This document shows, piece after piece, positions 11,165 through 41,137 of a stretch of DNA of 64,000 bases. The translations under genes were made by a program, and so were the position numbers. The stretch is from Craspedostauros australis (Eukaryota > Bacillariophyta > Bacillariophyceae > Mastogloiales > Achnanthaceae). The notes beneath the pieces were generated by a model. The model was not told where the DNA came from, ran no database searches, and saw only the letters and a list, made by a program, of their open reading frames with translations. The stretch is taken from positions 1,922,001 through 1,986,000 of the forward strand of contig JAMXDE010000011.1 of the NCBI GenBank assembly GCA_026770025.1, read 5' to 3'. The stretch's first letter is position 1, and every line of letters begins with the position of its first letter.

Positions 11165-14100
11165 ATGATGCGCACATCGCTCACCACGCTGACGGCCTTT
11201 TCGGCCCTCTTCCAGATTATCCATCTCACACGAGCGCTGACGATACACAGAGTGCGGTATGGGTACTTCACAGAGGCCCGGCCGCCGCATGTGGCATGTG
11301 CTCGCGGCTGGTTCGATCTGCACATTCCGGAAGAGGACGTGCTGTACCAGGTGGAATGCTACCCGCAGTCGTCCGGCAACTTTGCATCATCGAGGTTGGA
11401 CAATCTGCAGCTCGATCTTGCCAATTTGGGGTCCACGCCGTGGGCGCAAGGTGCGTGTCGATGCGACTCTTCTATTCCATTCCATTCAGTTCAGTTCTAT
11501 TCGTTGTGATTGCAAGTTGTGCCACTCGACATTGACAACATGCAGAGCAGCATTGGGCTGGGTTGGACTGGGTTGCACTGGGTTGCACTGGGTTGAGTGT
11601 TGTCCAAGCTTTGCCATTGCATATCGTTCTCCATAGATGCACATACTTGCACACCATTGGAGGGTCTACCGAAACAGCAACACAGAGTCTCACCAACGCA
11701 CTTCCTCCCAACGTGTTCTACGCTTCATCTCGTTTCGCTGCCCTAATCCATTCCAATCTACTCCACCACCCAATCCAATGCACTTCCAAATCAAAATTGC
11801 TCTGCGCCAATCCTACCTCGCAACAGCTGCGGCACGTGGTGTGGATGCCAAGGTCGTCTACATCTCGCAGTACCAGGGTGATGCCCAGGGCATCTACGTC
11901 CGCCCGGACCATCCGCAGTCCGGATACAAGGGCGTCGAAACACCATTCGACCTCAAGGGCAGCACGGTGGCGGTGCCATTCGGTTCCACGATGCACTACC
12001 AGATCCTCTTCCTCATAGAGCTCTTCGGATTGGAGGGCGTCAACGTCATCAACATGTCACCGTCCGCCATCCAGACAGCCTGGAGGAACGACACCACGGA
12101 ACTGCCCTTCATCGATGCGGCGGGCATCTGGGGATCCGCCAAGGAGTTCATCCTCAGCGGGAAGGAAGGCATGCAGGCAGCCAGGCCGCTCATGTCGGCG
12201 CGCGTTCTGTCCGACTGGGGCCGACCCACCTTCGTGGTCATCGTAGCCACGAGAACCTTCGAACGCAACCACCCCGTCTTCCTCAAGCACTTCGTCGGCA
12301 TGCTGTCCAAGCTCAACGACTCCTTCCTGGACGAGCTGGGCGAGGTAGACGAGGCCAACAGCCACAGGTGGGAGGCATCCGAAACGACGCCGCGCTCCTT
12401 CATCTCATCCATGGTCGACACGCTCATGAAGAGCGGATCCATCGCCGGCCAGCCCAGCAGCGAGGAGAAGTTCGCGCAGCGCACCAACTTGGGACTCTTC
12501 GTGCAGCAAACGGCACAGCAGCAGGTCTCCTGCGACTACCTCGGACCGCGACCTGGCAACTGCACCGCGCCCTCGCTGCAGCACATCGCGACGAGGCAGA
12601 CGGCGGAGTTCCTGGTCGATCAGAAGATCTTGGCCCAGCTGGGACCGTTGGATCTGCTGCAGGACGAGTCCGGCACGTGCAGAGACGCGGCGTCCGTGTG
12701 CGGTGGCGACATCTTCGATGGTTCCCTCCTGTACGCTGCGATTCAACCGTGCGACGCTTGCCTGCCTGTTGGGAGCTACGCCAACGTAACGCCGCCCGTG
12801 CGGATGGAACTCGACGGCCCGGATCATCTCATCGCGGCGCTCGAGAGGATGGATAACCAGACAGGCCGAGGCTTATTCGCCACGGACGAGATTGGCCGGG
12901 CACCGGCCGGCAAGTCCTCCATCGGCAATTCCACCTGCCTCAACATGACCGTCCTGGCGGATATGGTCGGCACGTTCGGTGACGGAGCCAACGGCGAAGA
13001 TCACAAGAGCTACTCCGACGATCTGCATTGCAGATGGGTCGTGGTCAGCGCCGCATGCCAGGACGACTGGGCGGCGCGTCGGTCCAACGGCACCTGCAAA
13101 GGGTTGGTCGAGATCAGCTTCGACACGTTCCGCGTTTGGTCCGGCGACTTCGTGCGGATCTACGAGCACCCCGATCTCGACTCCTGCAGGTCGGGACAGC
13201 GCGGCGTCCTTCTCGGCCAGCTGTCCGGCGTCTACGACGACGGCGCATTGACGCTTCCCAAATTCCGCGGCCACCGATGCATCTCCGTCCATTTCGATAC
13301 CGACAGCAACCAGGACCGAGTCTACAGCGGCAGGGTCGGCGACGGCTTCCTCGCCTCGTACGACCGGGACGCGATCGGCTGTTCCAATTCCGCAGACTGC
13401 AACCAGCACCGCTGTTTCGACAGCAAATGCGAATGCGGCGGCTTGGGTTGGGGTGCCGATTGTTCCGAAACCAAGACGTGCCTCGGCATGAACATGATCC
13501 GATTCAGCGAGCCCAACACGCCCTACACGCTGCGGAGCTCCGATATGGTGGACCCCGTGGCGCTGCGCAATGGAACCATCCTGTCGGCCGCGCCCGTCGA
13601 TCCCGCCATCGCTTACCCCAACGACCTCGATTGCACCTTCATGCTCATCGCGCAGGAGCCCAGCACCATCCGCGTCAGCATCATGTACGATTTGGAACCG
13701 ACGCACGACTTGATCTGGCTGCAGACCGGCAGTCCGGAGACTTCCACGGAACCCTACATGGTGCTGACCGGAACCCACAAGGAGATCAGCAAGTCCGAGA
13801 CGTACTACCTGCCAACCGACAACGGCGTCGCGAGCATGCGTCTGATGACCGATGCACGAGGTCGCCGACGGGGTTTCATTGCCACCGTGCAGATGCAAAA
13901 CATCGACATCAAGGATGCGCCGTGTCCCGAGCTTGGGTCGATGGGTCAGAATTGCGAGATTCCGCATTGCGCATTCACAAGCCCCTTGGCACCTGCGACG
14001 ACGCTCATGACGCCCGAATACACCGTCGGCCGCGTGCTGAGCCAGTCCAAATCGTACGGACGCGTCCGCGCGATGCCTTGGTCGTCTACTGGAGGTTGCA

Positions 14101-16166
14101 GGTGGACGTTGGAGGACAAGACCATTCCAGCCGACACGGTCGCCGTCCGCCTCATCTTCAACTCCCCGCTCGATCTCGAAGCGCATGCGTCCAGCGATAC
14201 TGGCGACACGCTCTCCATCCATTCGACATCCATGCAGCAAGAATTCTTCCTCGAGGCATGCACCAACGACGAGGCGTGCTCATCGTCTTGGCAGACCGGC
14301 AAGTGCACAAACAGCTCCTGCGCCGTCAAGGATATCATCGAGCTCGACTTTGAGGGCATACGAGAGGAACTGCCGGAACTGAAGATGTCCCTTATCACAG
14401 ATCGCAACGATGGCAACATGACGTACAAGGGATTGGACTTTGACGTGCTCCTAGTTGCGGAATGCCCCACAGTGGAAGGTATGCAGCATTGCGAGGCGTA
14501 CGGCGTTGGTACGTGCGTGGGAGAGGACCGATCCTTCTGCATCTGTCAGGGGAACATCCCGTGCGGTTGTCCGTGCGAAGGTTCACCACCGGTCATCGAT
14601 CGGCGCGAGATCAACGTCGCATTGATCGTTGGCATCGTCGTCCCGGTCGCCTGTATCATCATCGCGCTGTTCTTTGTGTACCGGCATCAAAAGAAGAAGA
14701 AATCACGAGCATTGAAGAAGCGCATCAACCATCTCGACGCCGAGGTGAAGAAGTTCCAAGACTCCGTCGTTGGTATGCGCGCCGTCATCCGGGCCTACAT
14801 GCCAAAGCAAAGCAGCGCAACGGAGGATGACCCAGCCGACAGGCCAGGCAGAATTGAGAAGGCCATTTGGTGCTGGGAGGAGAACAGGGCCTGCATGGAG
14901 CAGCACAACACCAAGGATATCTACGGTGACATCGATGACTGCTGGATCAAGTATGGCGAGCTGAGCAACATGGAGCTGGAGAAGTGCTACCAGGAGGGAC
15001 TGACATCGTGCAGCCCTCTGCCAGGCTACGACGTGGACTTTGAGCAAATGACCCAGCTGAACGCCAAGACGAACTACAAGCGCAATGTTTCACGGCAGAT
15101 CGAAGTCATCGACGTCCAACCGCAGATGGAGGACGTCGACCTGTCCGATGTTCTGATCGGCGACGGCACGATACCTGACGACATCAAGGACGAGCCGCAG
15201 ATGATTGTCGTCGGTGGTGATATCATCCAAATATCGAAAACGCACAGCGGCGGCGAGTGGGCCTTCGGAACGAAATTGCATCACGCCGACGACATGCTAG
15301 CGCGCAGCCTGTTGCACATGGCGATCCGAGGCACGGGAGAGGAAAGCAGCATCTACACGGACACTGGTTGGTTCCCAATCCAAGAGACGACGCGCGTTCC
15401 CACATCCGAGGACCTGAAGGCTCTGCAGTCCAACGTCGGAGACTCCGATGTGCTGGCCCCGCCCAAGTACTGGGACAGGATCAACAACCGAAGCAGCGCA
15501 GAACGGTACGAGCTGGGACCCAACGAACCCGAAGGCCAGAAGGTGGGCAAGGCCTTCTTCGAGTCGTTGCACTCGCAGAATTTCCGTCATCCTGTCGAAA
15601 TTCTTGGCGTGGAACGCATTCAGAATCTTGCCATGTGGCAATCCTACGTCGTGAAGCGCCAAACCATGTGCCATCGAGAGATCCAGGACAGCGAGGTGAT
15701 GGAGCAATCCAACCCCGACCGGCTCATGCGCAACGCCGTCGATCGATTCGAACGATGCTGGCTCTGGCACTCGACGAATGTGGAGTCCATCGAAAAGATT
15801 CTGCAGCAAGGCTTCAACCGTTCCTTCTGTGGCAAGAATGCCACCATGTACGGCAAGGGCGTTTACTTCGCTAGAGACGCAGCCTATAGTGCGCATCAGG
15901 CCTATGCCGTTGCTGACTCCGCCGGCCGACGTTATATGATTGCATGCAGGGTGATGGTGGGAGAGTACTGTCCAGGACGGCTGGACATGCTGACGCCCGA
16001 TGTGCGCGACCACGAGAAGAACATCCTCTACGATTCCACCGTAGGTCTTGCGGCTGGCGACACGATGGACAACCCAAGCATCTACGTGACGTACCATGAC
16101 GCACAGGCTTACCCCGAATATCTCATCACCTTCCGATACGTCAACAGTGGCCAGGACAATGTGTGA
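11165..16166 (+). CDS. Receptor-like TauA/CUB/EGF-WWE-PARP transmembrane protein
   Basis: Two exons, 11165-11450 and 11827-16166, give 1541 residues. The donor is GTGCGT and the acceptor ACAG. The phase-1 junction reads NLGSTPWAQ/AAARGVDAKVV, restoring the TauA-family 'NLGSSP..AAA' region. Order: signal peptide (1-25); taurine/sulfonate-type solute-binding domain (about 28-315, with DLKGSTVAVPFGSTMHY and WGRPTFVV); a Cys-rich link; CUB-like module (about 464-610); EGF-like module (about 614-643); two further Cys-rich, CUB-like stretches; membrane helix (about 1024-1046) followed by a KKKK stop-transfer; WWE-like segment (about 1100-1150, WCWEEN...CWIKYGELSNMELEKCYQ); PARP catalytic domain (about 1330-1541). 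The catalytic domain has LWHST (His), GKNATMYGKGVYFAR (Tyr) and AYPEYLITF. The H-Y-L pattern and 'ERIQN..MWQSY' are PARP14/12-like, predicting mono-ADP-ribosylation. Topology places ligand binding outside and the enzyme inside. The ligand is unknown. Confidence 0.85.
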
Positions 16167-16380: not shown

Positions 16381-18741
16381 TCAGGAACGCTCCTTCAAGT
16401 ACTTGTAGGCTAGGCACCACCTTGACGAAGCCGCGCACGTCATCGCAGTGTGACCAGCGTCGTTCAGAATATCTACATCTGCATTGCAGACTTCCACCAA
16501 GTGCTTGACGGTATTCAAGAGATCTTTTTGACTGGCCAGATGTAGCGGAGTTTCGCCCGCGTCGTTCTGGCAATTGACATCTGCATCTGTTGATTCCAAG
16601 ATATATTTGACAACCCGCCATTTGTTGCCGTCACATGCCTTGTGAAGTGGGGTATCGCCCTTGTGATTCCTTGCATGAATGTCTGCGTTTCTTGATTCCA
16701 CCAAGAATTTCACGGGGGAATATTTGTCCGCGAACCCAGCCACAAAATGAAGTGGAGTGTCACCTCGGCTGTTCTGCACGTTGACATTTGCTTGCGTTGC
16801 TTCCAACACGTATTGTACAGCATCCGCACAACCAGAGTAACATGCGTGAAGTAGTGGAGTGCTACTGAAGTCATCTTGGGCGTTGATGTCTGCGTTGATT
16901 GAGTTCAAAATGTACTCCATCATGAGATCATATCCCGAGAAACACGCAGCATGGAGTAAAGTTCTCCCATAGTTGTCTTTGACATCCGTGTTTGCGTTGC
17001 ACGATTCCATCAAGTACTTCGCAATCTCGACACGGCCGTGCCAACATGCGGTGTGAAGTGGAGTGGCGCCTCCATTGTCTGTTGCTTCGATATCAACGTT
17101 GTACGATTCAATCAACCATTTGACGATATCAAATCTTCTGTCCTTACATGCGATATGAAGCATGGATGCGCCTCTGTCATCTCGGACGTTGAAGTCTACA
17201 TCGGTTGATTCCAAGATATACTTGACGACATCTGTCTTCCTGCGCTTCATTGCAATATAGAGTGGTGGAGTGCTTTGACCTTGGCTGCATTGATTGATAT
17301 CCAGCTTGCCCGACTCCAGCAAGGCCTTCACCATGTCCAAACTCTCTCCGGAGCATGCATAGTGAAGTGCAGTCCAACCATTTTCACCTGTAGCATTGAT
17401 GTTTGCATTCGTTGATTCAATCATGTACATGGCAGCATCCTGCCGGCAGGACCTACATGCCAGGCAGAGCACAGATATGCCATCGCTATCACACGCATTG
17501 ACATCTGCGTCCCAAGTTTCCACCAAATACTTCACCATCTCCAAGGTTAGAGACCGAGCTGCATAAACGAGTGGTGTGGAGCCCTTCTCAGTTTGGAGAG
17601 TGACGTCGACATTTGCATCGGGTGATCTCAAGAGGTAATCAACCACGTCGATGTGGTTGTTCGAACATGCACGGTGAAGTGGGGTCCCACCATAGGTGTT
17701 AATGGCAGTCAAGTCCGATCTGCCTGACTCTACCAAACACTTCACCATGCCCAAGTCACCTTTCATACATGCTTGGTGAAGCGGGGTCTGCATGTCATGG
17801 GATCTGCTTTGAATGTTGATGTCTGCATTCGTCGATTCCACAATGTACTTCACAACATCCATGTGACTGTTCGAACACGCGAGATAGAGTGGAGTGCGAC
17901 CGCTGTTGTCTTGTGCGTTGATGTTTGAATTCCCTGCTTCCACCAGTAACTTCACAGTGGCCAAGTCACCGGCGATGCATGCGTGATGCAGGAGGGTCAT
18001 GCCGTCTTTTCCTTGCCTATTGATGTCGACCTTGCCTGACTCCGCAAAGCATTTCACAATCTCCGAGCGGCCACCCATGCATGCCCAATCAAGTAGAGCG
18101 AACTCTCCCTTCATGGTAGTGTGGACATTTACCTTGGCAGACTGCACCATGTATCTGATGACATCCACATGGCCATTGGAACATGCACAAGCCAATGGAG
18201 TATCGCGAGTGCAATTTTTGGCGTTTACGTTCACGATGCCTGTTTCCACCAAGTACGTCACAACATCCACATGGCCATTGGAACATGCACAAATCAATGG
18301 AGTATCGCGATTGCAATTTTTGGCGTTTACGTTCGCGTTGCCTGATTCCACCAAGTACCTCACGACATCCACATGGCCATTGGAACATGCACGATGCAGT
18401 GATGTCTCGCCATTCTCATCCTTCACTTGGACAGTCCGTTTGTGTGACTTCACCACTTGCTTGACCATCTCCAGATCTCCTTTCGAAGATGCAAGATGGA
18501 GCGCGGCCACGATGGAAGGATTTGAAGAGCCCATGCTTGGTTCGCATGACTCTAACAAACGCTTGACGATCTCCATGCGACCATGTCTGGCCGCAAGCTG
18601 CATCGCGGTATTGCCATCCTGATCTTGGATGCTTCCATCCGCGGCGCCAGTCTCACGGAAGAGATCCCGGTCGGTCATTGCTGGCTCGTTGGAGTTGTCA
18701 CGTGTTGATTCAAGGGGGCGAAGAGACGGCCGTCTTGTCAT
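16381..18741 (-). CDS. Ankyrin-repeat protein, copy 1 (shortened)
   Basis: 786 residues, almost entirely ankyrin repeats of about 33-37 residues, roughly 20 of them. The helix pattern is TPLHxACxxGHxDVVKYLVES followed by NADVNAxD. It has no signal peptide, membrane helix or catalytic domain, so a cytoplasmic protein-binding scaffold is likely and the partner is unknown. Against copy 2 (25491-28409) it lacks 186 residues, about five to six repeats, by an in-frame deletion just after residue 28: the shared start MTRRPSLR...MTDRDLF runs straight into ETGAADGS. The start at 18741 was chosen because the upstream reading frame is not kept between the copies. It converges on the receptor-PARP gene, with 214 bp between the stops. 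Confidence 0.85.
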   Translation of the reverse strand: MTRRPSLRPLESTRDNSNEPAMTDRDLFRETGAADGSIQDQDGNTAMQLAARHGRMEIVKRLLESCEPSMGSSNPSIVAALHLASSKGDLEMVKQVVKSHKRTVQVKDENGETSLHRACSNGHVDVVRYLVESGNANVNAKNCNRDTPLICACSNGHVDVVTYLVETGIVNVNAKNCTRDTPLACACSNGHVDVIRYMVQSAKVNVHTTMKGEFALLDWACMGGRSEIVKCFAESGKVDINRQGKDGMTLLHHACIAGDLATVKLLVEAGNSNINAQDNSGRTPLYLACSNSHMDVVKYIVESTNADINIQSRSHDMQTPLHQACMKGDLGMVKCLVESGRSDLTAINTYGGTPLHRACSNNHIDVVDYLLRSPDANVDVTLQTEKGSTPLVYAARSLTLEMVKYLVETWDADVNACDSDGISVLCLACRSCRQDAAMYMIESTNANINATGENGWTALHYACSGESLDMVKALLESGKLDINQCSQGQSTPPLYIAMKRRKTDVVKYILESTDVDFNVRDDRGASMLHIACKDRRFDIVKWLIESYNVDIEATDNGGATPLHTACWHGRVEIAKYLMESCNANTDVKDNYGRTLLHAACFSGYDLMMEYILNSINADINAQDDFSSTPLLHACYSGCADAVQYVLEATQANVNVQNSRGDTPLHFVAGFADKYSPVKFLVESRNADIHARNHKGDTPLHKACDGNKWRVVKYILESTDADVNCQNDAGETPLHLASQKDLLNTVKHLVEVCNADVDILNDAGHTAMTCAASSRWCLAYKYLKERS

Positions 18742-19615
18742 TCGCGTCCATCCAACCCTATGGGACTGCTGCTAGCGATGGCTGGTATGGCGCACTGAAG
18801 AAGCGAACAAGGGAAAGAGCGGAGGCAAGATGAAGACCGTGGCCGAAGGTGACTCGGATCTGTTTGCAGTTGGAACTTTATGGTGGCAATGGCCGTTGCT
18901 TCTTTTGTGGCAATCGGCTGAGTGTGCTGGTATGGTAACAGATCACAGGCGTCGGTGATGCTTGGGCGATTCTTCTGATGCCACCCAACAAGCAAACACC
19001 GTGACATCTCGTGGTGCAGGTAACACGATCGAGTCTCTCGCAACATTCTCAGGTTTTGCGGCAAACCTGAAATTGGGCTGGCTCGGCACTCCCACACGAT
19101 CCGTTGTATCGGTGTCAACCTCCGAGTATGTACTATGTCCATAGACTGAAAGATGCGACGGAGACGAGGCCATTCGCACGTACAACGCCCACGGGAGGAA
19201 ATGTCACAAGAGAGGCAGCCCAAAGTAAGATGGAACGATCGGAGACACTTCAATTCGTAGATGGAGTCCATGCCGCTCTGCCCTGGAAGTCCACTCGGAA
19301 TCAAGGTCATGGTGTCAGTATGCAGTCGTCGGATTGTGCTTCAGAAAGTGAGAAGGAAAGACTAGAGTACTCCTACTCTGCAATATTATGTTTCGTGTGA
19401 TTGCAGCAACATGCAGGCAAGCATACAGGTGAAGAGTATTGCGCAACGGCAGAAAACACACACGCACACACGATTGCATGTACGTACGTGGATGAATGCT
19501 GTCTAAGCGTCATGATGGAATACGTAAGTAGTTGGTCGTTGTCGTCGTCTTTCGTTCGTTCGAGAGAGAGAGTGCACGTAGTGTGCACTTCATTCTACCC
19601 ATTTGAGTATGCCGT
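18742..19615. other. Intergenic, ankyrin copy 1 to HflX copy 1
   Basis: 874 bp presumed to contain the ankyrin promoter and the HflX 3' end. The minus-strand open frame at 18738-19310 is broken relative to copy 2 by a 10-bp indel (GAGCTTTATG, present only in copy 2), so it is unlikely to be coding. Confidence 0.6.
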
Positions 19616-21586
19616 CTAGCTTCGCTGCTTGTGCCTGCCACGTCCAAGGGCCACCCAGTCGATCCCATCGTCATTATCGTTGTCACCACCACCCGTCGCA
19701 ACAGCCGATGCTTGTCCCATCCCCTCATCGGAGGCCACGCTGTACTGCTGCAAACGGTTGGCGATTGACTGGGGAACTCTGCCCATCACGTAGGTTCCCT
19801 GCGGTCGGTAATCGATCGTCTCGACGTTGCCTTGTTCGTGGATGAGATTGAGCTCATCGCCCAGACTGTACGGCAGCTCCAGCTCGATTGGCACCAGCAA
19901 ATCAGCCAACGCATCTTCGACGACCGCCACGAAGTCCTGCAAACCGTCTCCGCGCAGGGACGACACGGCCACCGTGTTTTCCGCCATGGCGGCTTCGTAC
20001 CTCAGGTACTCGGCGTCATCTTCGTCGAGCAGGTCGATCTTGTTGAAGACGCGCACCATGGGCTTGTCGCTGGCATCGATGTCTGCCAGAACCTTGCGCA
20101 CGGCCCGTTCCTGCTTGTCCCACGCCGGGTTGGACACGTCGATGACATGGACGAGGACATCGGCCTCCCGGACTTCCTCCAAGGTGGCGCGGAAGGCCGC
20201 GACGAGATGGGTGGGGAGCTTCTGGATGAACCCGACGGTGTCCGTGAGCAGCACCTCCGGATGTGTCTTGTATCCCGGCAGCTTGACCTTGCGCGTCGTG
20301 GGGTCGAGGGTGGCGAAGAGCATGGATTCGGCCATGACACCGGCTCGCGTGAGGTAGTTGAGCATCGTCGACTTGCCGGCGTTCGTGTAGCCCACGAGGG
20401 AGAGGATTGGCAGGCCCGTTCGCGATCGACCTCTGCGATGCATGGCACGCTGCTTCTGGACGTTGTTGATCTTCTCCTTGAGGACGATGATGCGGTCGCG
20501 CACGAGACGCTTGTCGATCTCGAGCTGCGATTCTCCAGGTCCTCGCAGACCGACGCCGCCGGCGCCGGATTGGCGTTCCAAATGCGTCCACATCTTGGTG
20601 AGCCTTGGCTTGCGGTACTCGTGCAGTGCGAGGTCGACCTGCAGCTTACCTTCCTTCGTCTTGGCGTGCTGTGCGAAGATGTCTAGAATGAGCGCGGTGC
20701 GGTCGACGACCTTGATCTCACGCTCGGAGACGAGAAAATCATTCTGCAGCAGCTTGCGATTGAAGGTGTTCTCGAGGGTCTTTTGCTGGCCAGGGCTGAG
20801 TTCCGCATCGAAGACGATCGTGCAACATCCTTGCTCCTCCATCAGCGCCTTGGCCTCCTGCACCTTGCCTGTGCCGACGTATGTCTTGGGATTGATCTCC
20901 TGCAGTCGCTGCGTGATCTCGGCGCCGATCTCCATACCGGCCGTGCGGATTAACTCCCGCATCTCGATCAGGGACTCCTCCAGTGTGAAGACTGGCGCAT
21001 CCTGCCCATTCTCCAACGGGTTGTAGTAGCGTTCCGACCGCTTCGCTTTGCGCTGCAGTCCCAAGTCTTCGACGCCGATCAGAATGCAGCGTTCCACCTT
21101 GCGTCGGATGCCTTTTTCATCGACGTAGAGACGATCTTCGCGTTCTGTGAGGATGTCGTCCTCATCACGTGTGAATGCGGTGAACTCTCCATCACCCTCC
21201 ACGTCGGTGTCGCCGTCCATCATGAGGTTCGCCTCATCGCCATCCTCTTCAAAGAAGGACATGCCAGCCATGTCATCATCCGCCGTGTTGGCGAATTCCA
21301 TCATGGCATCGATGGGTCGTTGCTGCGGCTGCGCGGAATGTCCATCGTCCGCATCATCGCTGGAATGATCTCCCACCTGAAAGACAGGGTCGTTGTCATT
21401 CGTCTGCAGCGAAAGTGCCGTCTGATGGTTGGCTGCGGCCGGTTCGAGACCGTTTCTGCTGAGTAAGTGCTGCGGAGGAGATCTCGGGAGGAAAGCCACC
21501 GACGATGTGATCATCGAAAGCATCGCAGCGGATCTCATGATCGACTGCGTTGTGCACCATGAGGTGCTGCTCGTTTGCCTCGTCAT
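19616..21586 (-). CDS. hflX: HflX/GTPBP6-family GTPase, copy 1
   Basis: 656 residues. HflX GTPases bind the large ribosomal subunit and rescue or recycle stalled ribosomes. In eukaryotes they are organellar (mitochondrial GTPBP6, plastid HflX). After an acidic linker (about 60-130) comes the HflX N-terminal domain, with [23 protein letters not shown] and the Gly-rich [16 protein letters not shown] loop. A coiled helix pair follows, then the G domain: G1 GYTNAGKST (about 398), G3 DTVGF (about 448), G4 NKID (about 513). The N-terminus [20 protein letters not shown] (from residue 17) is hydrophobic, then has SVAFLP, compatible with an organelle-targeting leader. The start at 21586 (MTRQT) is shared with copy 2. 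The open frame continues to 21922 only in this copy and that extension is not duplicated. Confidence 0.92.
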
Positions 21587-22628
21587 GGTGGATCTAAGTG
21601 GAATGGTATCGTCTATCGTCTGCCGTCTGCCTGAGATTGTTGGCGCAGAAGCCGAAATGTGGGGGCAGATGGCACGAAACCAAAGAAAGCCAATGACGTC
21701 ATTCGCTGATACAACACACAGCCGAAAGTCACCACAGTTGGGACAGACTTGATCCGGGACTGTTCCAGGACTCATCTGATCGTGTCGCGTACGTGGTACC
21801 CGGTATCCCAACCCAGTATTGTGATGAAAGCCTACCGCACACATGGTGTGTAGTTGGACCACAATCCATGCTCTGCTCATCCTCCAGCTCATGCACTCCT
21901 GCCACCTGTCCAAACTCGCCATCTTTCAGAACCTGTGCTTGTCTTGAAGCATATCCATATTATGGATCAGGCACTACCCTGCGGATGGCGTGCATGGACA
22001 ACTGTGTGTGTGCGGGATCACCACGACATGTTGTTGCTCAACAAGAACGGCTGGAGCACGACAGCATGACCCTACCTTTTTACTCGAGTGCCCTATCAAT
22101 AGCAAGCTTAACACATAAGAACAAGCAATCAGAAACAATCATCACAGCTTACATCCGAGTCTACTACAGTTACATCATTGTCTGGCATAGCTTTGTTCTC
22201 AATACCAAACGGCGTCAAAACCGGTTGAAGGACAGATCATCCTCCTGACAACGTGCAAAAGACATGGAATACCAACTGGCAGCTGCGATCTGCAATCAAC
22301 TACATCCACCTTCCTAACCCTCCAAGAGACTTCCTCAGCGCGCAGATCGCTGTGTCTATCGACACCGAGCCCCAAGGCTCCCAACCCTTCATGACCAACC
22401 GGCCTGACTAGCGATACATGAGCTAGCCCGAAGGCAACTCAACCAACCAAGCCCTTGCCAAGCAGAGGCTACCGCCAGCACCTGCAGACCAGGTGCTTGT
22501 TTTCAAATCACTCCTGCCAGTACCTCCGTGCACACCTTTGCAAGCAAAGGGAGGTCGAGCAGCAAACTCCAAGACGACCGTCGACACCAAGCGAAGCCCA
22601 ACGACTTCGACACCTCCACGACCTCACC

Positions 22629-25490: not shown

Positions 25491-28409
25491 TCAGGAACGC
25501 TCCTTCAAGTACTTGTAGGCTAGGCGCCACCATGACGAAGCCGCGCACGTCATCGCAGTGTCACCAGCGTCGTTCAGAATATCAACATCTGCATTGCGGA
25601 CTTCCACCAAGTGCTTGACGGTATCCAAGTTATCGCGTTGACTGGCCAGATGCAGCGGAGTTTGGCCCGCATCGTTCTGGCAATTGACATCTGCATCTGT
25701 TGATTCCAAGATGTATTTGACAACCCGCCATTTGTTGCCGGCACATGCCTTGTGAAGTGGGGTATCGCCCTTGTTATTCCTTGCATGGATGTCTGCGTTT
25801 CTTGATTCCACCAAGAATTTCACGGGGGAATATTTGTCCGCGAGCCCAGCCACAAGATGGAGTGGAGTGTCACCTCGCCTGTCCTGTACGTTGACATTTG
25901 CTTGCGTTGTTTCCAACATGTATTGCACAGCGTTCGCACGACCAGAGTAACATGCGTGAAGTAGCGGAGTGCTGCCGAAGTCATCTTGGGCGTTGATGTC
26001 TGCGTTGATTGAGTTCAAAATGCACTCCAGCATGGGAACATGTCCCGAGAAACACGCAGCATGGAGTAAAGTTCTCCCATAGTTGTCTTTGGCATCCGCG
26101 TTTGCGTTGCACGATTCCATCAAGTACTTCGCAATCTTCAAATAGCCGTACTCACATGCAGTGTAAAGTGGAGTGGCGCCTCCATTGTCTGTTGCTTCGA
26201 TAGCAACGTTGTACGATTCAATCAACCATTCGACGATATCAAACCTCCCGTCCTTACATGCGATATGAAGCATGGATGCGCCTCTGTCATCTCGGACGTT
26301 GAAGTCTACATCGGTCGATTCCAAGATATACTTGACGACATCTGTCTCCCTGTGCTCCATTGCAAGATAGAGTGGTGGGGTGCTTTGGGCACGGTTGCAG
26401 TGATTGATATCCATCTTGCCCGACTCCAGCAAGGCCTTCACCATGTTCAAACTCCCTCCGGCGCATCCATAGTGAAGTGCAGTCCAACCATTTTCATCTG
26501 TAGCATTGATGTTTGCATTCGTTGATTCAATCATGTACATGGCAGCATCCTGCCGGCAGGACCTACATGCCAGGCAGAGCACAGATATGCCATCGCTATC
26601 ACACGCATTGACATCTGCGTCCCATGTCTCCACCAAATACTTCACCATCTCCAACTCCAGATTCTGAGCTGCATAAACGAGTGGTGTGGAACCCTTCTTA
26701 GTTTGGAGAGTGACGTCGACATTTGCATCGGGTGATCTCAAGAGGTAATCAACCACGTCGATGTGGTTGTTCAAGCATGCAATGTGAAGTGGGGTCCCAC
26801 CACAGGTGGTAATGGTAGTCAAGTCCGATCTGCCTGACTCTACCAAACACTTCACCACGCCCAAGTCGCCTTTCATACATGCTTCGTGAAGCGGGGTCTG
26901 CATGTCATGGGAACTGCTTTGAATGTTGATGTCTGCATTCGTCGATTCCACAATGTACTTGACAACATCCATGTGGCTGTTCGAACACGCGAGATGGAGT
27001 GGACTGAGATCGCTGTTGTCTTGTGCGTTGATGTTTGAATTCCCTGCTTCCACCAGTAACTTCACAGTGGCCAAGTCACCCGCGGCGCATGCGTGATGCA
27101 AGAGGGTCATGCCGTCCTTTCCTTGCCTATTGATGTCGACCTTGCCTGACTCCACAAGGCACTTCACAACATCCGAGAGGCCGCCCATGCATGCCCAATC
27201 AAGTAGAGTGGACTCTCCCTTCATGGTAGTGTCGACATCTACCTTGGCAGACTGCACCATGTATCTGATGACATCCACATGGCCGTTGGAACATGCACAA
27301 GCCAATGGAGCATCGTGATTGCAATTTTTGGCATTTACGTTCACGATGCCTGTTTCCACCAAGTACGTCACAACATCCACATGGCCATTGGAACATGCAC
27401 AAATCAATGGAGTATCGCGATTGCAATTTTTGGCGTTTACGTTCGCGTTGCCTGATTCCACCAAGTACCTCACGACATCCACATGGCCATTGGAACATGC
27501 ACGATGCAGTGATGTCTCGCCATTCTCATCCTTCACTTGGACAGTCCGTTTGTGTGACTTCACCACTTGCTTGACCATCTCCAGATCTCCTTTCGAAGAT
27601 GCAAGATGGAGCGCGGCTACGATGGAAGGATTTGAAGAGCCCATGCTTGGTTCGCATGACTCTAACAAACGCTTGACGATCTCCATGCGACCATGTCTGG
27701 CCGCAAGCTGCATCGCGGTATTGCCATCCTGATTTCGGATGCTTCCATCCGCGGCGCCAGTCTCCATCCAATAATCCACAATCTCGAGATGACCTTTCAT
27801 GCATGCGTAATGGAACGCGGTGTTGCCGAAGCTATCTTGAATGTTGATATCCGCTTCGCATGATTCTGCCAGGTATTTGACAATTGCCAAATGACCATGA
27901 AGGCATGCTGTATGGAGCACGGTCTCGCCAGCCTTGTCCTGCTTGGTGGTATCTGCTGAGTAAGATCCCACCAGGCTCTTCAAGATGTCCAAATGACCCT
28001 CAAGACATGCATAGTGGAGCGCAGTCTTGCCAAGGTTATCTCGGGAGGCGACATCTGCTGCGTGTGACTCGATCAGGTATTGCATGATGTCGGTACTACC
28101 TCGTGCACATGCGGCATGGAGTGCGGTCTCTCCGTCCTCGGATCGAACGTTGGGATCTGCTTTACATGTTTCCAAAAGGTGCTTGACCATATCCAGTTGA
28201 CCACTAGAGCATGCGGCTTGGAGGAGACCCTTGCCAGATCCATCCTTGATGGTGTCAATGGGGGTACGAGGAGACGGAGTTCTCCATGCGTCGAATGCAC
28301 CCAGATCTCCCTGTTCGACGGCATGGAAGAGATTCCGGTCGGTCATTGCTGGCTCGTTGGAGTTGTTACGTGTTGATTCAAGGGAGCGAAGAGACGGCCG
28401 TCTTGTCAT
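25491..28409 (-). CDS. Ankyrin-repeat protein, copy 2 (full length)
   Basis: 972 residues with roughly 26 ankyrin repeats and nothing else recognisable. The N-terminus MTDRNLFHAVEQGDLGAFDAW looks like a natural capping repeat, which argues that this copy is ancestral and copy 1 was deleted. Repeats in the N-terminal fifth (for example GETVLHTACLHGHLAIVKYL) have no counterpart in copy 1. Otherwise the two proteins align with scattered substitutions, some clustered in single repeats. An open frame continues upstream to 28988, but it is frameshifted in copy 1, so the start was placed at 28409. Predicted soluble scaffold; partner unknown. Confidence 0.87.
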   Translation of the reverse strand: MTRRPSLRSLESTRNNSNEPAMTDRNLFHAVEQGDLGAFDAWRTPSPRTPIDTIKDGSGKGLLQAACSSGQLDMVKHLLETCKADPNVRSEDGETALHAACARGSTDIMQYLIESHAADVASRDNLGKTALHYACLEGHLDILKSLVGSYSADTTKQDKAGETVLHTACLHGHLAIVKYLAESCEADINIQDSFGNTAFHYACMKGHLEIVDYWMETGAADGSIRNQDGNTAMQLAARHGRMEIVKRLLESCEPSMGSSNPSIVAALHLASSKGDLEMVKQVVKSHKRTVQVKDENGETSLHRACSNGHVDVVRYLVESGNANVNAKNCNRDTPLICACSNGHVDVVTYLVETGIVNVNAKNCNHDAPLACACSNGHVDVIRYMVQSAKVDVDTTMKGESTLLDWACMGGLSDVVKCLVESGKVDINRQGKDGMTLLHHACAAGDLATVKLLVEAGNSNINAQDNSDLSPLHLACSNSHMDVVKYIVESTNADINIQSSSHDMQTPLHEACMKGDLGVVKCLVESGRSDLTTITTCGGTPLHIACLNNHIDVVDYLLRSPDANVDVTLQTKKGSTPLVYAAQNLELEMVKYLVETWDADVNACDSDGISVLCLACRSCRQDAAMYMIESTNANINATDENGWTALHYGCAGGSLNMVKALLESGKMDINHCNRAQSTPPLYLAMEHRETDVVKYILESTDVDFNVRDDRGASMLHIACKDGRFDIVEWLIESYNVAIEATDNGGATPLYTACEYGYLKIAKYLMESCNANADAKDNYGRTLLHAACFSGHVPMLECILNSINADINAQDDFGSTPLLHACYSGRANAVQYMLETTQANVNVQDRRGDTPLHLVAGLADKYSPVKFLVESRNADIHARNNKGDTPLHKACAGNKWRVVKYILESTDADVNCQNDAGQTPLHLASQRDNLDTVKHLVEVRNADVDILNDAGDTAMTCAASSWWRLAYKYLKERS

Positions 28410-29313
28410 TCGCGTCCATCCAACCCTATGGGACTGCTGCTGGTGATGGCTGGTATGGCGCACTGGAGAAGTGAACAAGAGAAAGAGTGGAGGCAAGATG
28501 AAGACCATGGCTGAAGGTGACTCGGATCTGTTTGCAGTTGGAACTTTATGGAGCTTTATGGTGGCAATGGCCGTTGCTTCTTTTGTGGCAATCGGCTGAG
28601 TGTGCTGGTATGGTAACAGATCACAGGCGTTGGTGATGCTTGGGCGATTCTTCTGATGCCACCCAACAAGCAAACACCGTGACATCTCTTGGTGCAGGTA
28701 ACACGATCGAGTCTCTCGCAACATTCTCAGGTTTTGCGGCAAACCTGAAATTGGGCTGGCTCGGCACTCCCACACGATCCGTTGTATCGGTGTCAACCTC
28801 CGAGTATGTACTATGTCCATAGACTGAAAGATGCGACGGAGACGAGGCCATTCGCACGTACAACGCCCACGGGAGGAAATGTCACAAGAGAGGCAGCCCA
28901 AAGTAAGATGGAACGATCGGAGACACTTCAATTCGTAGATGGAGTGCATGCCGCTCTGCCCTGGAAGTCCACTCCGAATCAAGGTCATAGTGTCAGTATG
29001 CAGTCGTCGGATTGTGGTTCAGAAAGTGAGAAGGAAAGACTAGAGTACTCTTACTCTGCAATATTTTGTTTCGTGTGATTGCAACAACATGCAGGCAAGC
29101 ATACAGATGAAGAGTATTGCGCAACGGCAGAAAACACACACGCACACACGATTGCATGTACGTACGTGGATGAATGCTGTCTAAGCGCCATGATGGAATA
29201 CGTAAGTAGGTGGTCGTCGTCGTCGTCGCTCTCTCTCTCTCTCTGTCTCTCTCTAGAGAGAGATGTAGAGTGCACATAGTGTGCACTTCATTCTACCCAT
29301 TTGAGTATGCCGT
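28410..29313. other. Intergenic, ankyrin copy 2 to HflX copy 2
   Basis: Counterpart of 18742-19615. It differs by point changes, a 10-bp insertion near 28548 and an expanded CT/GA microsatellite near 29228-29263. No gene is supported. Confidence 0.6.
29228..29263. repeat. (CT)n/(GA)n microsatellite
   Basis: A CT run turning into AGAGAGAGA, present in copy 2 of the duplication. Copy 1 has only a short GAGAGAGAG at the matching place (about 19560-19572), so the array changed after duplication. Confidence 0.85.
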
Positions 29314-31284
29314 CTAGCTTCGTTGCTTGTGCCTGCCACGTCCAAGGGCCACCCAGTCGATCCCATCGTCATTATCGTTGTCACCACCACCCGTCGCAAC
29401 AGCCGATGCTTGTCCCATCCCCTCATCGGAGGCCACGCTGTACTGCTGCAGACGGTTGGCGATCGACTGGGGAACTCTGCCCATCACGTAGGTCCCCTGC
29501 GGTCGGTAATCGATCGTCTCGACGTTGCCTTGTTCGTGGATGAGATTGAGCTCATCGCCCAGACTGTACGGCAGCTCCAGCTCGATTGGCACCAGCAAAT
29601 CGGCCAACGCATCTTCGACGACCGCCACGAAGTCCTGCAAACCGTCTCCGTGCAGGGACGACACGGCCACCGTGTTTTCCGCCATGGCGGCTTCGTACCT
29701 CAGGTACTCGGCGTCATCTTCGTCGAGCAGGTCGATCTTGTTGAAGACGCGCACCATGGGCTTGTCGCTGGCATCGATGTCTGCCAGAACCTTGCGCACG
29801 GCCCGTTCCTGCTTGTCCCACGCCGGGTTGGACACGTCGATGACATGGACGAGGACATCGGCCTCCCGGACTTCCTCCAAGGTGGCGCGGAAGGCCGCGA
29901 CGAGATGGGTGGGGAGCTTCTGGATGAACCCGACGGTGTCCGTGAGCAGCACCTCCGGATGTGTCTTGTATCCCGGAAGCTTGACCTTGCGCGTCGTGGG
30001 GTCGAGGGTGGCGAAGAGCATGGATTCGGCCATGACACCGGCTCGCGTGAGGTAGTTGAGCATCGTCGACTTGCCGGCGTTCGTGTAGCCCACGAGGGAG
30101 AGGATTGGCAGGCCCGTTCGCGATCGACCTCTGCGATGCATGGCACGCTGCTTCTGGACGTTGTTGATCTTCTCCTTGAGGACGATGATGCGGTCGCGCA
30201 CGAGACGCTTGTCGATCTCGAGCTGCGATTCTCCAGGTCCTCGCAGACCGACGCCGCCGGCGCCGGATTGGCGTTCCAAATGCGTCCACATCTTGGTGAG
30301 CCTTGGCTTGCGGTACTCGTGCAGTGCGAGGTCGACCTGCAGCTTACCTTCCTTCGTCTTGGCGTGCTGTGCGAAGATGTCTAGAATGAGCGCGGTGCGG
30401 TCGACGACCTTGATCTCACGCTCGGAGACGAGAAAATCATTCTGCAGCAGCTTGCGATTGAAGGTGTTCTCGAGGGTCTTTTGCTGGCCAGGGCTGAGTT
30501 CCGCATCGAAGACGATCGTGCAACATCCTTGCTCCTCCATCAGCGCCTTGGCCTCCTGCACCTTGCCTGTGCCGACGTATGTCTTGGGATTGATCTCCTG
30601 CAGTCGCTGCGTGATCTCGGCGCCGATCTCCATACCGGCCGTGCGGATTAACTCCCGCATCTCGATCAGGGACTCCTCCAGTGTGAAGACTGGCGCATCC
30701 TGCCCATTCTCCAACGGGTTGTAGTAGCGTTCCGACCGCTTCGCTTTGCGCTGCAGTCCCAAGTCTTCGACGCCGATCAGAATGCAGCGTTCCACCTTGC
30801 GTCGGATGCCTTTTTCATCGACGTAGAGACGATCTTCGCGTTCTGTGAGGATGTCGTCCTCATCACGTGTGAATGCGGTGAACTCTCCATCACCCTCCAC
30901 GTCGGTGTCGCCGTCCATCATGAGGCTCGCCTCATCGCCATCCTCTTCAAAGAAGGACATGCTAGCCATGTCATCATCCGCCGTGTTGGCGAATTCCATC
31001 ATGGCATCGATGGGTCGTTGCTGCGGCTGCGCGGAATGTCCATCGTCCGCATCATCGCTGGAATGATCTCCCACCTGAAAGACAGGGTCATTGCCATTCG
31101 TCTGCTGAGAAAGCGTCGTCTGATGGTTGGCTGCGGCCGGTTCGAGACCGTTTCTGCTGAGTAAGTGCTGCGGAGGAGATCTCGGGAGGAAAGCCACCGA
31201 CGATGTGATCATCGAAAGCATCGCAGCGGATCTCATGATCGACCGCGTTGTGCACCATGAGGTGCTGCTCGTTTGTCTCGTCAT
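29314..31284 (-). CDS. hflX: HflX/GTPBP6-family GTPase, copy 2
   Basis: 656 residues, the same length as copy 1 (19616-21586). It has identical G1 (GYTNAGKST), G3 (DTVGF) and G4 (NKID) motifs and the same leader [20 protein letters not shown]. By eye the residue differences are confined to the leader and linker (for example ALSLQTNDN versus [16 protein letters not shown] versus MASMSFF, NLMMDG versus SLMMDG) plus one Arg/His change (SSLRGDG versus SSLHGDG). The GTPase core is otherwise unchanged. Homology with copy 1 ends 51 bp upstream of the ATG, so this copy has its own promoter, shared divergently with the EGF-protein gene. Role as for copy 1: ribosome rescue or assembly, probably in an organelle. 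Confidence 0.92.
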
Positions 31285-38002: not shown

Positions 38003-41000
38003 CTATCGGAGAACACTGGCTGGAGGCTTCAACTCGAACTCATCAAACACGATCTTCAGGACGCGCTTGCGGACCATGGAGTTGTACGACAGCTGGTTGA
38101 TCGTCAGGGCGACCGTCAGCTTCACATCGGGGATGCAGATCACCAGGCTTCCACCCAAGCCTGGATGACCGAACGACTGCACCTTGCGACCTTCGTATTC
38201 GAACTCGTGGACGACAAGTCCGAGGCCGAAGAAGGCGGAAGAATCATTCAGCAAGGCGTGGACTGCCGTCTGGGCATCTCCCTGCTGCTGCTGGGCCATG
38301 GCGATGGTCTCGTTGGTGAGGGATCGCTCCTTCATGATGATGTCGTCCATGACCTTCGCCAGAGACGATGCGGATGCGTGCATGTTGGCGGATGGGAGCT
38401 TGGCGCTCCTCACCTTCCTCATGTTGTACATGGTGGGTGTCATGAGCTGCTTGCGCCCGGCGTACTTGGCGAGGATCTTCTTGTGGTTGATGCTGGGCTT
38501 GGTTGGTGTCGAGGCTGCTGCTGATGGTGCGGCGACTGCCTTCGTTGGCGATGAGGCTGCTGCTGCTGGCTTGATTGGTGCGGTGGCGGCCTCCATCGCC
38601 TTCTTGCGCTCGGCCTCCTGCTTGAGCTTCATCTGCTTCATCTTCTCTCGCTTGGCGGCTTCGGCTGCGGCGTTGTTCAGCTGGGCCAAGTCGGCATGGT
38701 GGACAGACAGGACCGCCAGCTCGTCGTTGTCGATGTCCTCCGGCAGTCCTCCAGCGTGGAGGTTGAACTCCTCGTCGCTGTCGGGATCGGCGAGGACGCT
38801 CTTGAGGTACTGGTCGTACGGCTGCTTCGTCACCGCCTCGATGAGGCCTCCGCACAGCCATGCGAGGGACAGGTAGTGGTACTTGGTCTGCTGACCGCAT
38901 GGGTACTGGGTGCCCGTGCTCTCCATGAACTTCTTCATGCTGTCCCAGTCCAGCATCTCATCCAGACTGCCGTCGCGTGGCATGGCGTTGGGCATTCCGC
39001 TCTGGTGAGACAGGACGTATCGGACCGTGATGTCCTTCTTGCCGAACTCTGGCCAGTACGTGGCGACTGGCTCATCCAGATCGATCTTGCCATCCTGGAC
39101 GAGCCGCAGGACGCCGATGGCCAGGTAGGCCTTGCCGACGGAGAAGACGTTGAAGAGGGTGGATGGGGTGACGGGGCGTGGGTTGGCGGTTCCCAACACA
39201 CCTGCGGCGACGTTCACGCGCTCCTCCCCACCCACGCGGACGTTGAGCTGGAGGCCCACCATGCTGCCTTCCTTCTGGACGTCCGCGATCGCACCCTCCA
39301 GCTTCTCGCGCAGGGCGTCGCTGGAGACGGATGATCGATCGTGGACCAGGGACTTGGCGCGATCCTGGGTGGGGACCGACTCGCAGATGGTGGTTCGGGC
39401 GGCCTTGGCCATGGTGTTCAGGTACGGGTACTTGACGTCGAGGTAGGAGCAGAGTCCGCGGAGGAGGTTGCTCACTCGGGCGAAGAAGATGAGCTCCGCT
39501 GGCCATGCGTCGATGGGGTTGCGCAGGCTGTCGTGCTCACCCAGACCCTGCTCCTTCTTCATGGCGGCGACGCGCGCCTGGTACTCGTGGGAGAGTCGCT
39601 TCTGGACCTTCTTGGCCTTGGACTGGGGGATGGTCGTGTGGAAGGTCTGCTGCAGGGTCACGAGATCCTCGAATGGATCGTGTCTGTTCATCTTCACTCC
39701 CATCTCATCGAAGCTTCGCGTCAGCTCATCGGCATCGCCGACATCGGTCGCGTGCATGAGACGGGACAGACCGAGCTTCATCTTGTGATCGAAGCGCTTG
39801 GTGAGTCCAAAGTCCAGCAGGACCGGCACGGAGCCGTCCTTGCCTGGCGCGGTCGAGACGAGGATGTTCCCGGCGTGCGGATCCGTGTTGAAGACACCTC
39901 CGACGTGCATCTGGACTGCCCATGCTGTGCAGATGCGCTCCAGCAGCAGCTTGCGGTCGACGTTGTGCTTCTTCATGGCCTTGATGTTGCGGACGGAGAA
40001 TCCGTCGCAGAACTCCATCACCAGGACGCGCTCCGTGACGAGGCCTGGGATGGCCCTTGGCACGATGACATCGACCTTGTTCTCTGCCATCAGCAGTCGG
40101 ACCTCGTTCATGTTGACGGCCTCTGCGCGGAAGTCGAGCTCCTTCTCCACCTCCATCGAGTACTCCTTGACGACGGACTCGAAGTCGAGGTCTGGCTCGA
40201 AGCGGGCGAGGAACTCCATGATGATGTGAAGGTTCTCAACATCCTGTCTCATCAACGAGGCCACGCCTCGGTGCTGCACCTTGATGGCGACCTCCTGTCC
40301 GTTGGTGAGCTTGGCGCGGTGTACCTGCGCCAGCGACGCTGTGGACAGGGAGACGGGGTCGATGGATTCGATGGACTTGAACTGGACGGGCGTGAGCTCT
40401 TCATGGAGCGTGGCCATGATGTCGTTGTCGAAGCTGCGTTCCGGCAGATCATCCTGCAGGGCCGACAGCTCCTGGACGAACTCGAGGGGCATGACATCGG
40501 CGCGGGAGCTGAGGTATTGTCCGACCTTGATCCAGAATCCTTCGAGGGTCTTGATCTGGTCTGTGAGGCGCTGTGCGGTCTTGCGGTTGGCGAGGCTCCA
40601 GAAGTGGACGATGTCTGGATGTTCCTCGGCCTGGGCGTCGGTGAGGTTGAGGGATTGCTGGATGCGGGATGCTTCGCGCTTGGCGAATTGGTACTCGATG
40701 AAGGTCTGGATGGCCATGCGGTAGACGCTGATGCGGCGGAGCTGCTTGGCGAGGAAGCTTGGCTCATCGTGTGTCGAGTTGTTGTTGATTTTGTTGTTGG
40801 CGTTGCTGCTGCTGCTGCTGCCGTTGTCGATGATGGAGAGGATGGCATCGTCCGACTTGGTGTTTCCGTTGGCCACTTGTCGATCGGCGGTGAGGACGAC
40901 GAGGATGACGGCGAGGAGTGTTGAGACGAAGAAGATGAGCATGGCATCAAGCATGTCCTTGAGGTTGGCGAGCATGTTGGGGAGCTCATCGGAGTATTCT

Positions 41001-41137
41001 TGCAGCTTGGCCTTGAGAGTTGGGGGCGAAGTTGTCTTCATGATGGATACCGTCTTCGAGCAGCATGCGGATGAGGAAGGGCAGCATGAGGAAGCGGCGC
41101 ATGAAGGGGAGGAGGAGGAGGAGGTATAGTCTTGCAT
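38003..41137 (-). CDS. ABC1/UbiB-kinase-beta-lactamase fusion, copy A
   Basis: 1044 residues. Ser/Cys-rich N-terminus, membrane helix (about 66-84, LIFFVSTLLAVILVVL), Asn/Ser linker, then an ABC1/UbiB atypical kinase (about 150-520): KVGQYLSSRADVMPLE (KxGQ, about 203), SLAQVHRAKL, VAIKVQHRG, KELDFRAEA (ExD-type), DPHAGNILVS, and VLLDFGLTKR (DFG, about 441). A class-C beta-lactamase/serine-hydrolase domain follows (about 600-1040): SVGK (SxxK nucleophile, about 664), LSHQSGMPN, YHYLSLAWLCGG (YxN position, about 751), and the late GHPGLGGS motif. The kinase part resembles ADCK/COQ8-like proteins linked to quinone and lipid metabolism. The same fusion is known in plants (Arabidopsis At5g24810). 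An Ala/Lys-rich linker (about 835-910) interrupts the hydrolase domain. Substrate unknown. Confidence 0.92.
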   Translation of the reverse strand: MQDYTSSSSSPSCAASSCCPSSSACCSKTVSIMKTTSPPTLKAKLQEYSDELPNMLANLKDMLDAMLIFFVSTLLAVILVVLTADRQVANGNTKSDDAILSIIDNGSSSSSNANNKINNNSTHDEPSFLAKQLRRISVYRMAIQTFIEYQFAKREASRIQQSLNLTDAQAEEHPDIVHFWSLANRKTAQRLTDQIKTLEGFWIKVGQYLSSRADVMPLEFVQELSALQDDLPERSFDNDIMATLHEELTPVQFKSIESIDPVSLSTASLAQVHRAKLTNGQEVAIKVQHRGVASLMRQDVENLHIIMEFLARFEPDLDFESVVKEYSMEVEKELDFRAEAVNMNEVRLLMAENKVDVIVPRAIPGLVTERVLVMEFCDGFSVRNIKAMKKHNVDRKLLLERICTAWAVQMHVGGVFNTDPHAGNILVSTAPGKDGSVPVLLDFGLTKRFDHKMKLGLSRLMHATDVGDADELTRSFDEMGVKMNRHDPFEDLVTLQQTFHTTIPQSKAKKVQKRLSHEYQARVAAMKKEQGLGEHDSLRNPIDAWPAELIFFARVSNLLRGLCSYLDVKYPYLNTMAKAARTTICESVPTQDRAKSLVHDRSSVSSDALREKLEGAIADVQKEGSMVGLQLNVRVGGEERVNVAAGVLGTANPRPVTPSTLFNVFSVGKAYLAIGVLRLVQDGKIDLDEPVATYWPEFGKKDITVRYVLSHQSGMPNAMPRDGSLDEMLDWDSMKKFMESTGTQYPCGQQTKYHYLSLAWLCGGLIEAVTKQPYDQYLKSVLADPDSDEEFNLHAGGLPEDIDNDELAVLSVHHADLAQLNNAAAEAAKREKMKQMKLKQEAERKKAMEAATAPIKPAAAASSPTKAVAAPSAAASTPTKPSINHKKILAKYAGRKQLMTPTMYNMRKVRSAKLPSANMHASASSLAKVMDDIIMKERSLTNETIAMAQQQQGDAQTAVHALLNDSSAFFGLGLVVHEFEYEGRKVQSFGHPGLGGSLVICIPDVKLTVALTINQLSYNSMVRKRVLKIVFDEFELKPPASVLR

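Follow-up and report, generated by a model that had tools for sequence, protein, structure and literature searches.

Receptor enzymes with a kinase, phosphatase or cyclase output are textbook knowledge, and we know of no receptor enzyme whose output is an ADP-ribosyltransferase. Among membrane-bound PARPs, PARP16 is described in the excerpts of PMC12377720 as the sole transmembrane mono-ADP-ribosyltransferase (mono-ART) of its family, a single-pass protein of the endoplasmic reticulum (ER) whose luminal tail is required for activation; the excerpts of PMC4245714 place it in clade 6. The latter also note that clade-3 PARPs of Rhizaria and a sponge PARP12-like protein have transmembrane regions. 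Here we describe a gene in a stretch of 64,000 nucleotides of the diatom Craspedostauros australis (contig JAMXDE010000011.1, positions 1,922,001 to 1,986,000; hereafter the window) that joins a solute-binding domain related to the taurine-binding protein TauA, one membrane helix and a PARP catalytic domain in a single reading frame. We consider it fairly probable that the product would act as a ligand-gated, single-pass cell-surface receptor with cytosolic mono-ADP-ribosylation as its output.

Among the diatoms and 'brown algae' covered by one survey, no PARP was reported, and the word transmembrane is absent from the excerpts of that survey (PMC2964712); Thalassiosira oceanica has at least two PARPs according to the excerpts of PMC4245714. 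A literature search, with most subscription journals outside its reach, gave by title or abstract start no receptor-like PARP with a sensor ectodomain, and none is mentioned in the excerpts of PMC2964712, PMC4245714 and PMC12377720. The statement in the initial annotation that PARPs are normally soluble holds only in part, because it overlooks PARP16 (PMC12377720) and the transmembrane clade-3 PARPs (PMC4245714).

Gene model and domain organization

The gene lies on the forward strand and consists of exon 1 (11165-11450) and exon 2 (11827-16166), and its predicted spliced product has 1541 amino acids (aa) with no internal stops. Its WWE-SH3-like-PARP unit, termed the cassette, is shared with four paralogues (L018, L019, L020 and L022). 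The features are as follows.

11165..11450, + strand: exon 1 (286 bp), with the N-terminal hydrophobic stretch and the start of the TauA-like domain; splices in frame to exon 2
11451..11826, + strand: predicted intron (376 bp, GT-AG, GTGCGT...CAACAG)
11827..16166, + strand: exon 2, contained in the 1509-codon open reading frame (ORF) 11637-16166
11165..11239, + strand: signal-peptide-like N-terminus (aa 1-25), from hydropathy only
11261..12626, + strand: TauA/sulfonate-type substrate-binding domain (aa 33-362), split by the intron
12627..14609, + strand: cysteine-rich stretch, predicted to be extracellular (aa 363-1023)
14610..14684, + strand: the one transmembrane helix (aa 1024-1048); its last residue is R, and HQKKKKSRALKKR comes next
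14703..14798, + strand: juxtamembrane heptad (coiled-coil-like) helix, from its a/d pattern
14922..15095, + strand: WWE domain
15195..15398, + strand: SH3-like segment (G..I...H....WA.G..L ... GWFP)
15465..16163, + strand: PARP (ARTD) catalytic domain, PARP14/15-like
15768..15770, + strand: catalytic His1410 (WLWHST; HGT in the four cassette paralogues)
15864..15866, + strand: catalytic Tyr1442 (GKGVYF)

The ORF 11637-16166 by itself contains the transmembrane helix, the WWE domain and the PARP domain as well as the greater part of the TauA-like domain. Since it covers the joint, the fusion of the TauA and PARP parts is independent of the intron call. The G+C content at third codon positions (GC3) is 0.72-0.84 along this ORF in seven 600-base steps. 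An assembly or gene-model artefact, that is, a chimeric contig or two adjacent genes fused in reading, might be suspected given that the intron is predicted; the 1509-codon ORF across the joint, its even GC3 and the same kind of fusion at four other loci make this highly improbable. The profile and PDB-sequence matches, the single ORF and the four further sensor-transmembrane-PARP genes bear out the earlier proposal of one protein that joins a solute-binding ectodomain, one transmembrane helix and an intracellular PARP.

The TauA-like domain and its candidate ligand

Residues 33-362 matched the taurine-binding-protein family TIGR01729 of NCBIfam with E=1.5e-24 and 86.9 bits. As this score lies below the equivalog cut-off of 304.25 bits, the domain is regarded as a TauA homologue and not as a TauA equivalog. 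PRK11480 (3e-18) and SsuA_fam (1e-13) also matched, each below its curated cut-off, and the only Pfam match was OpuAC (E=0.1, below cut-off). In the PDB sequence search, TauA (6ssy, 1.4e-15) was the sole match at E<=0.1. The bacterial-type solute-binding ectodomain predicted by the initial annotation is thereby recovered, at the level of sequence, as a match to a periplasmic-binding family. All paralogue searches were made within the genome that holds the window (74.8 Mb, 90 contigs), where TIGR01729 gave one match, the window gene.

Relatives outside this genome were searched for in two ways. By tblastn, the domain matched 302 of 72,556 plasmid records; the annotated genes beneath the matches listed are tauA, with Rhizobium and Sinorhizobium prevailing by genus counts. 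With 26-32% identity among the matches listed, these plasmid relatives are too distant for a donor of the domain to be named. In a contig scan, the TauA-like domain by itself produced 28 pattern matches, none of them a relative. The scan was also run with alignment A3, which is headed by E. coli TauA and contains the TauAs of E. coli and Azospirillum, two Sinorhizobium TauAs and the window protein. It gave at least 551 relatives among at least 594 stretches; identity to E. coli TauA was 73-99% in the best 80, which are uninformative on the origin of the algal domain.

In TauA, the sulfonate is contacted by the side chain of Gln30 and the main-chain amides of Gly61, Gly79 and Thr132, and the amine by Glu106, Thr132 and Asp205 (excerpts of PMC6906117). 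According to A3, the window protein retains Ser60, Gly61, Gly79, Thr132 (T150) and Trp176 of TauA, has Glu37 in place of Ser32, and carries Phe35 for Gln30, Gln116 for Glu106 and Val232 for Asp205. Hence one of the four taurine-contacting side chains (Gln30, Glu106, Thr132 and Asp205) is kept, namely Thr132. In the four bacterial rows, Gln30 and Glu106 are kept in all and Asp205 in two. A main-chain oxyanion site is therefore plausible in the window protein. Because Gln30, Glu106 and Asp205 are replaced, it is unlikely that taurine is the ligand or would be bound at TauA's nanomolar affinity; another anionic or sulfonate solute is our guess. Thus, of the sulfonate/taurine-type fold proposed earlier, the family homology stands, and the pocket residues speak against taurine itself.

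Ectodomain, membrane helix and sidedness

The N-terminus may act as a signal peptide, the sole indication being a hydropathy of 1.35 at residues 9-27. Downstream of the TauA-like domain, the CUB/EGF modules proposed earlier could not be confirmed. Pfam searches with five sub-segments of the cysteine-rich stretch gave no CUB or EGF family at E<=10; DUF5108 (0.015) and EB (0.38) appeared, both below cut-off. Of two PDB sequence searches with this stretch, one gave no match and the other two unrelated weak matches, none of them a CUB protein. Searched against its own genome at E<=0.01, the stretch matched only itself (one candidate scored).

The helix at residues 1024-1048 has a best 19-residue mean hydropathy of 3.2 versus 1.53 for the runner-up in the protein, and the proposal of one membrane helix agrees with this single strong peak. 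The helix runs into RHQKKKK / RHQKKKKSRALKKR, a strongly positive inner flank. The 998-residue ectodomain contains 38 cysteines (3.8 per 100) versus 10 in the 493 inner residues (2.0 per 100), and 12 N-X-S/T sequons versus 4, which is barely above the length expectation. The distribution of cysteines and sequons offers weak support for an outer N-terminal side. The reverse arrangement, in which the PARP domain would face outward as an ecto-ADP-ribosyltransferase like the glycosylphosphatidylinositol-anchored ARTCs, draws on the existence of ecto-mono-ARTs and on sequons that are only slightly denser N-terminally (12/998 vs 4/493 residues). With RHQKKKKSRALKKR immediately after the helix and a cysteine density nearly double on the N-terminal side, such an inverted topology is very improbable.

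Shortly after the helix, the best 22-residue stretch of the juxtamembrane heptad has 6 of 6 hydrophobic a/d positions, which was equalled by 3 of 1000 shuffles.

The predicted cytosolic unit

PARP14 carries a WWE domain alongside its PARP domain. In the window protein, the WWE segment had been doubted in the initial annotation and proved significant (PF02825, 6.9e-11, 42.8 bits vs the Pfam cut-off of 21.1; 6.2e-10 in the genome search).

Between the WWE and PARP domains, the alignment of the five cassette proteins (A1; window, L018, L019, L020 and L022) contains a further segment, missed in the earlier domain list, in which 12 columns are invariant, WA.G and GWFP among them. Pfam searches with the five segments gave SH3 matches for two of them (SH3_2 at 0.024 and 0.1, SH3_9 at 0.061), all below cut-off, and no Pfam SH3 match for the segment of the window protein. 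A profile of the five segments gave four PDB matches at E 0.25-2.4 (intersectin-1, intersectin 2, myosin-5 and Vav), none significant singly. We tentatively termed the segment SH3-like.

The catalytic domain matched PF00644 with 6.2e-23 and 81.8 bits (cut-off 26.7). The best 18 of the 42 PDB matches to the cytosolic half were PARP15, PARP14, PARP10 and PARP12 (2.1e-32 to 9.3e-22), with PARP15 and PARP14 the closest (2.1e-32 to 2.5e-30). Together with the presence of His1410 and Tyr1442, this agrees with the PARP14-type domain with an H-Y pair that had been read from the sequence earlier. In the best PDB alignment, the C-terminal QAYPEYLITF is identical to that of PARP15, an ending which we take to mean a mono-ART.

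The glycine of the HGT motif touches nicotinamide via its main chain. The window enzyme is the only one of the five cassette proteins with HST at this place, and its activity may be weakened by the change. This is the chief ground for a different explanation, in which the receptor layout is real and the window PARP is a pseudoenzyme, able to bind NAD+ or partners but not to transfer ADP-ribose, so that the signal would pass via recruitment by the WWE and SH3-like segments or via dimerization with an active paralogue. HGT is present in the four cassette paralogues and in a further receptor-like gene (L039), and inactive PARPs such as PARP13 are known (excerpts of PMC12377720). The window protein, however, keeps the catalytic His and Tyr, ends as PARP15 does and scores well above the Pfam cut-off in its PARP domain; we regard a pseudoenzyme as rather unlikely.

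A family of receptor-like PARPs in one genome

Using PF00644, we found 12 places in the genome, and L039, hidden by introns, brought the number of PARP loci to 13. The window gene, L018, L020, L022 and L039, five in all, are receptor-like; of the others, one is a cassette gene without a transmembrane helix (L019, WWE-SH3-like-PARP in a 486-aa ORF), three are broken copies and four are conventional. The broken copies (L021, L023 and L024) are stop- or frame-broken versions of the L019-type WWE-PARP gene; L021 additionally carries a copia-like gag-pol ORF. Among the conventional loci, L014 and L015 are PARP1-like with zf-PARP, WGR and regulatory domains and a C-terminal Macro domain, which places a writer and a possible reader on one chain. 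L016 has two WGR, one WWE, regulatory and PARP domains, and L017 has the order ankyrin-WGR-regulatory-PARP.

The other receptor-like genes carry different ectodomains. L018 combines ANF_receptor (9.4e-37) with PARP (1.6e-27); L020 combines ANF_receptor (1.8e-36) with WWE (1.8e-6) and PARP (4.7e-26); and L022 combines dCache_2 (1.8e-21) with WWE (1.6e-5) and PARP (4.8e-20). Each of the three has one transmembrane-like stretch ahead of the cassette. L022 is the only dCache_2 match in the genome, and ANF_receptor gave 14 matches, 13 of them above cut-off. At E<=0.01, the L018 ectodomain matched 149 distinct PDB sequences, with metabotropic glutamate receptors the best (4.1e-15) among the matches listed. 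The architecture of sensor, predicted transmembrane helix and PARP is thus recurrent in this genome, in five genes with TauA-type, ANF-type and Cache-type ectodomains.

In A1, pairwise identity is 42-63% for the PARP domain, 22-45% for the SH3-like segment and 19-37% for the WWE domain, with no change at the catalytic His and Tyr. The model of L039 comprises three exons, and only one of the four donor pairs tried for its first two exons gives an open frame. The spliced model has the order ANF-TM-PARP-WWE, TM denoting the transmembrane helix (ANF 1.8e-28; PARP 1.5e-10, 41.4 bits, cut-off 26.7; WWE 7e-12). Its ectodomain with the helix is 35% identical to that of L018 and 31% to that of L020, and its PARP domain only 21% and 23%, respectively, which indicates that the inner half is replaced or rearranged. 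In a FastTree phylogeny of ten PARP catalytic domains of the genome, the five cassette PARPs are separated (support 0.903) from L039 and from the four PARP1/WGR types. L039 stands on a long branch, and ten sequences are too few for further inference. When viral contigs were scanned with the cassette alignment, 57 pattern matches and 0 relatives resulted.

On visual inspection, the window gene, L022 (MVQPTR...LLALLTLSCLSLYHC) and L039 (MHKAGIKWVGSVALCCLLCTISAAA) have signal-peptide-like starts. In algae whose plastid is secondary, a signal peptide can also lead to other endomembranes, and it would be compatible with a PARP in the membrane of an internal compartment (ER, Golgi, vacuole or outer plastid membrane) that reports lumenal solutes or stress in the manner of PARP16, the precedent for this arrangement (excerpts of PMC12377720). 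Three family members, however, have ANF_receptor ectodomains, and that of L018, the one compared with the PDB, matches cell-surface receptors such as the metabotropic glutamate receptors. An internal location is thus decidedly unlikely, and a location at the cell surface is preferred.

Other features of the genome and the window

Five further ANF_receptor ORFs (L043-L046 and L049) have at least five transmembrane-like stretches; the two that were scanned, L043 and L044, are class C G-protein-coupled receptors (GPCRs). WWE domains were also found outside the PARP loci. L040 and L041 (C30:472000-489000) are near-identical neighbours with a GRDP-like domain and two WWE stretches, and no PARP match was obtained for L040 in the domain scan (L041 was judged by eye). 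L042 (C31:122500-131500) is a right-handed beta-helix protein with a terminal WWE domain.

Elsewhere in the window, positions 16381-21922 and 25491-31284 (minus strand) form a duplicated block of two ORFs, a long one with ankyrin repeats and one for an HflX-like GTPase, both named by eye. Three long ORFs (38003-41137, 52532-55798 and 59061-62192) read as an ABC1-type kinase with a beta-lactamase-like part behind it, also named by eye; the first and third are near-identical and lie in opposite orientation. Genome-wide, the chlorophyll a/b-binding family gave 61 matches and Silic_transp 88, of which 32 extend over 480 or more of the 513 positions (a few of these contain internal stops). Both counts are in keeping with a silicified, photosynthetic alga and most likely a diatom. 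A silicon-transporter family of 88 matches is unusually large compared with other diatoms.

Discussion

Here, we propose a model for the window protein as a ligand-gated receptor at the cell surface. The signal peptide would direct the N-terminal portion to the secretory pathway, and the two-lobed TauA-type domain would bind a small solute outside the cell. Domain closure could then be relayed via the cysteine-rich stalk, the transmembrane helix and the juxtamembrane coiled-coil-like helix to the WWE-SH3-like-PARP unit. The PARP domain would in turn mono-ADP-ribosylate the receptor itself or cytosolic partners, and the WWE domain and SH3-like segment may aid partner recruitment. PARP16 is a precedent for a luminal segment that governs a cytosolic transmembrane PARP. 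Because five genes pair PARP with TauA-type, ANF/class-C-GPCR-type or Cache-type ectodomains, it appears that sensors were exchanged ahead of a common transmembrane-enzyme unit.

Several observations weigh against this model. In the window protein itself, these are the three replaced pocket residues and HST in place of HGT. The juxtamembrane coil is convincing in the window protein only; in the three transmembrane paralogues, 54, 66 and 95 of 1000 shuffles equalled the heptad. The WWE match of L018 (0.0029) is below the Pfam cut-off, and the L018 and L020 ORFs show no signal peptide by eye; an upstream exon would be required there. Single-sequence structure predictions for part of the cysteine-rich stretch (12918-13938, predicted local distance difference test (pLDDT) 40.0) and for the cytosolic part (14835-16163, pLDDT 33.8) were uninformative and were left unused.

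Whether these proteins form a new receptor class, receptor ADP-ribosyltransferases, we regard as evenly poised. In such a class, at least three extracellular sensor families would stand ahead of a shared TM-WWE-SH3-like-PARP unit, and outside chemistry would be written as ADP-ribose on cytosolic proteins. If so, these receptors would write ADP-ribose marks as receptor kinases write phosphate, ADP-ribosylation would be a first-line environmental signal, and NAD+ status would be coupled directly to sensing. Silicified phytoplankton would acquire a candidate sensing system for dissolved solutes. The five genes within one genome make the receptor-PARP proposal testable.

Among described enzymes, the clade-3 mono-ARTs PARP14, PARP15 and PARP10 give the best match to the catalytic domain; in contrast to the window protein, the literature excerpts mention neither a transmembrane helix nor an ectodomain for them. 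PARP16 resembles the proposed layout of the window protein in its single transmembrane helix, its cytosolic ART domain and a lumenal segment required for activation, and differs in that its helix is C-terminal with a 23-residue lumenal tail (excerpts of PMC12377720), whereas the window protein has an N-terminal ectodomain of about 1000 residues and its helix precedes the PARP domain. The clade-3 PARPs of Rhizaria and the sponge likewise combine a transmembrane region with PARP, and the excerpts of PMC4245714 make no mention of a solute-binding, ANF or Cache ectodomain in them. The bacterial TauA/SsuA proteins belong to the same sequence family and share part of the pocket; the window protein differs from them by the replacement of Gln30, Glu106 and Asp205, by its eukaryotic host and by its membrane tether. 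In their proposed functional layout, L018, L020 and L039 resemble receptor guanylyl cyclases and class C GPCRs, with an ANF-type ectodomain outside and the output inside. Class C GPCRs, at least two of which are encoded in this genome (L043 and L044), have seven transmembrane helices, whereas the receptor-like PARPs have a single one and a PARP as the output enzyme.

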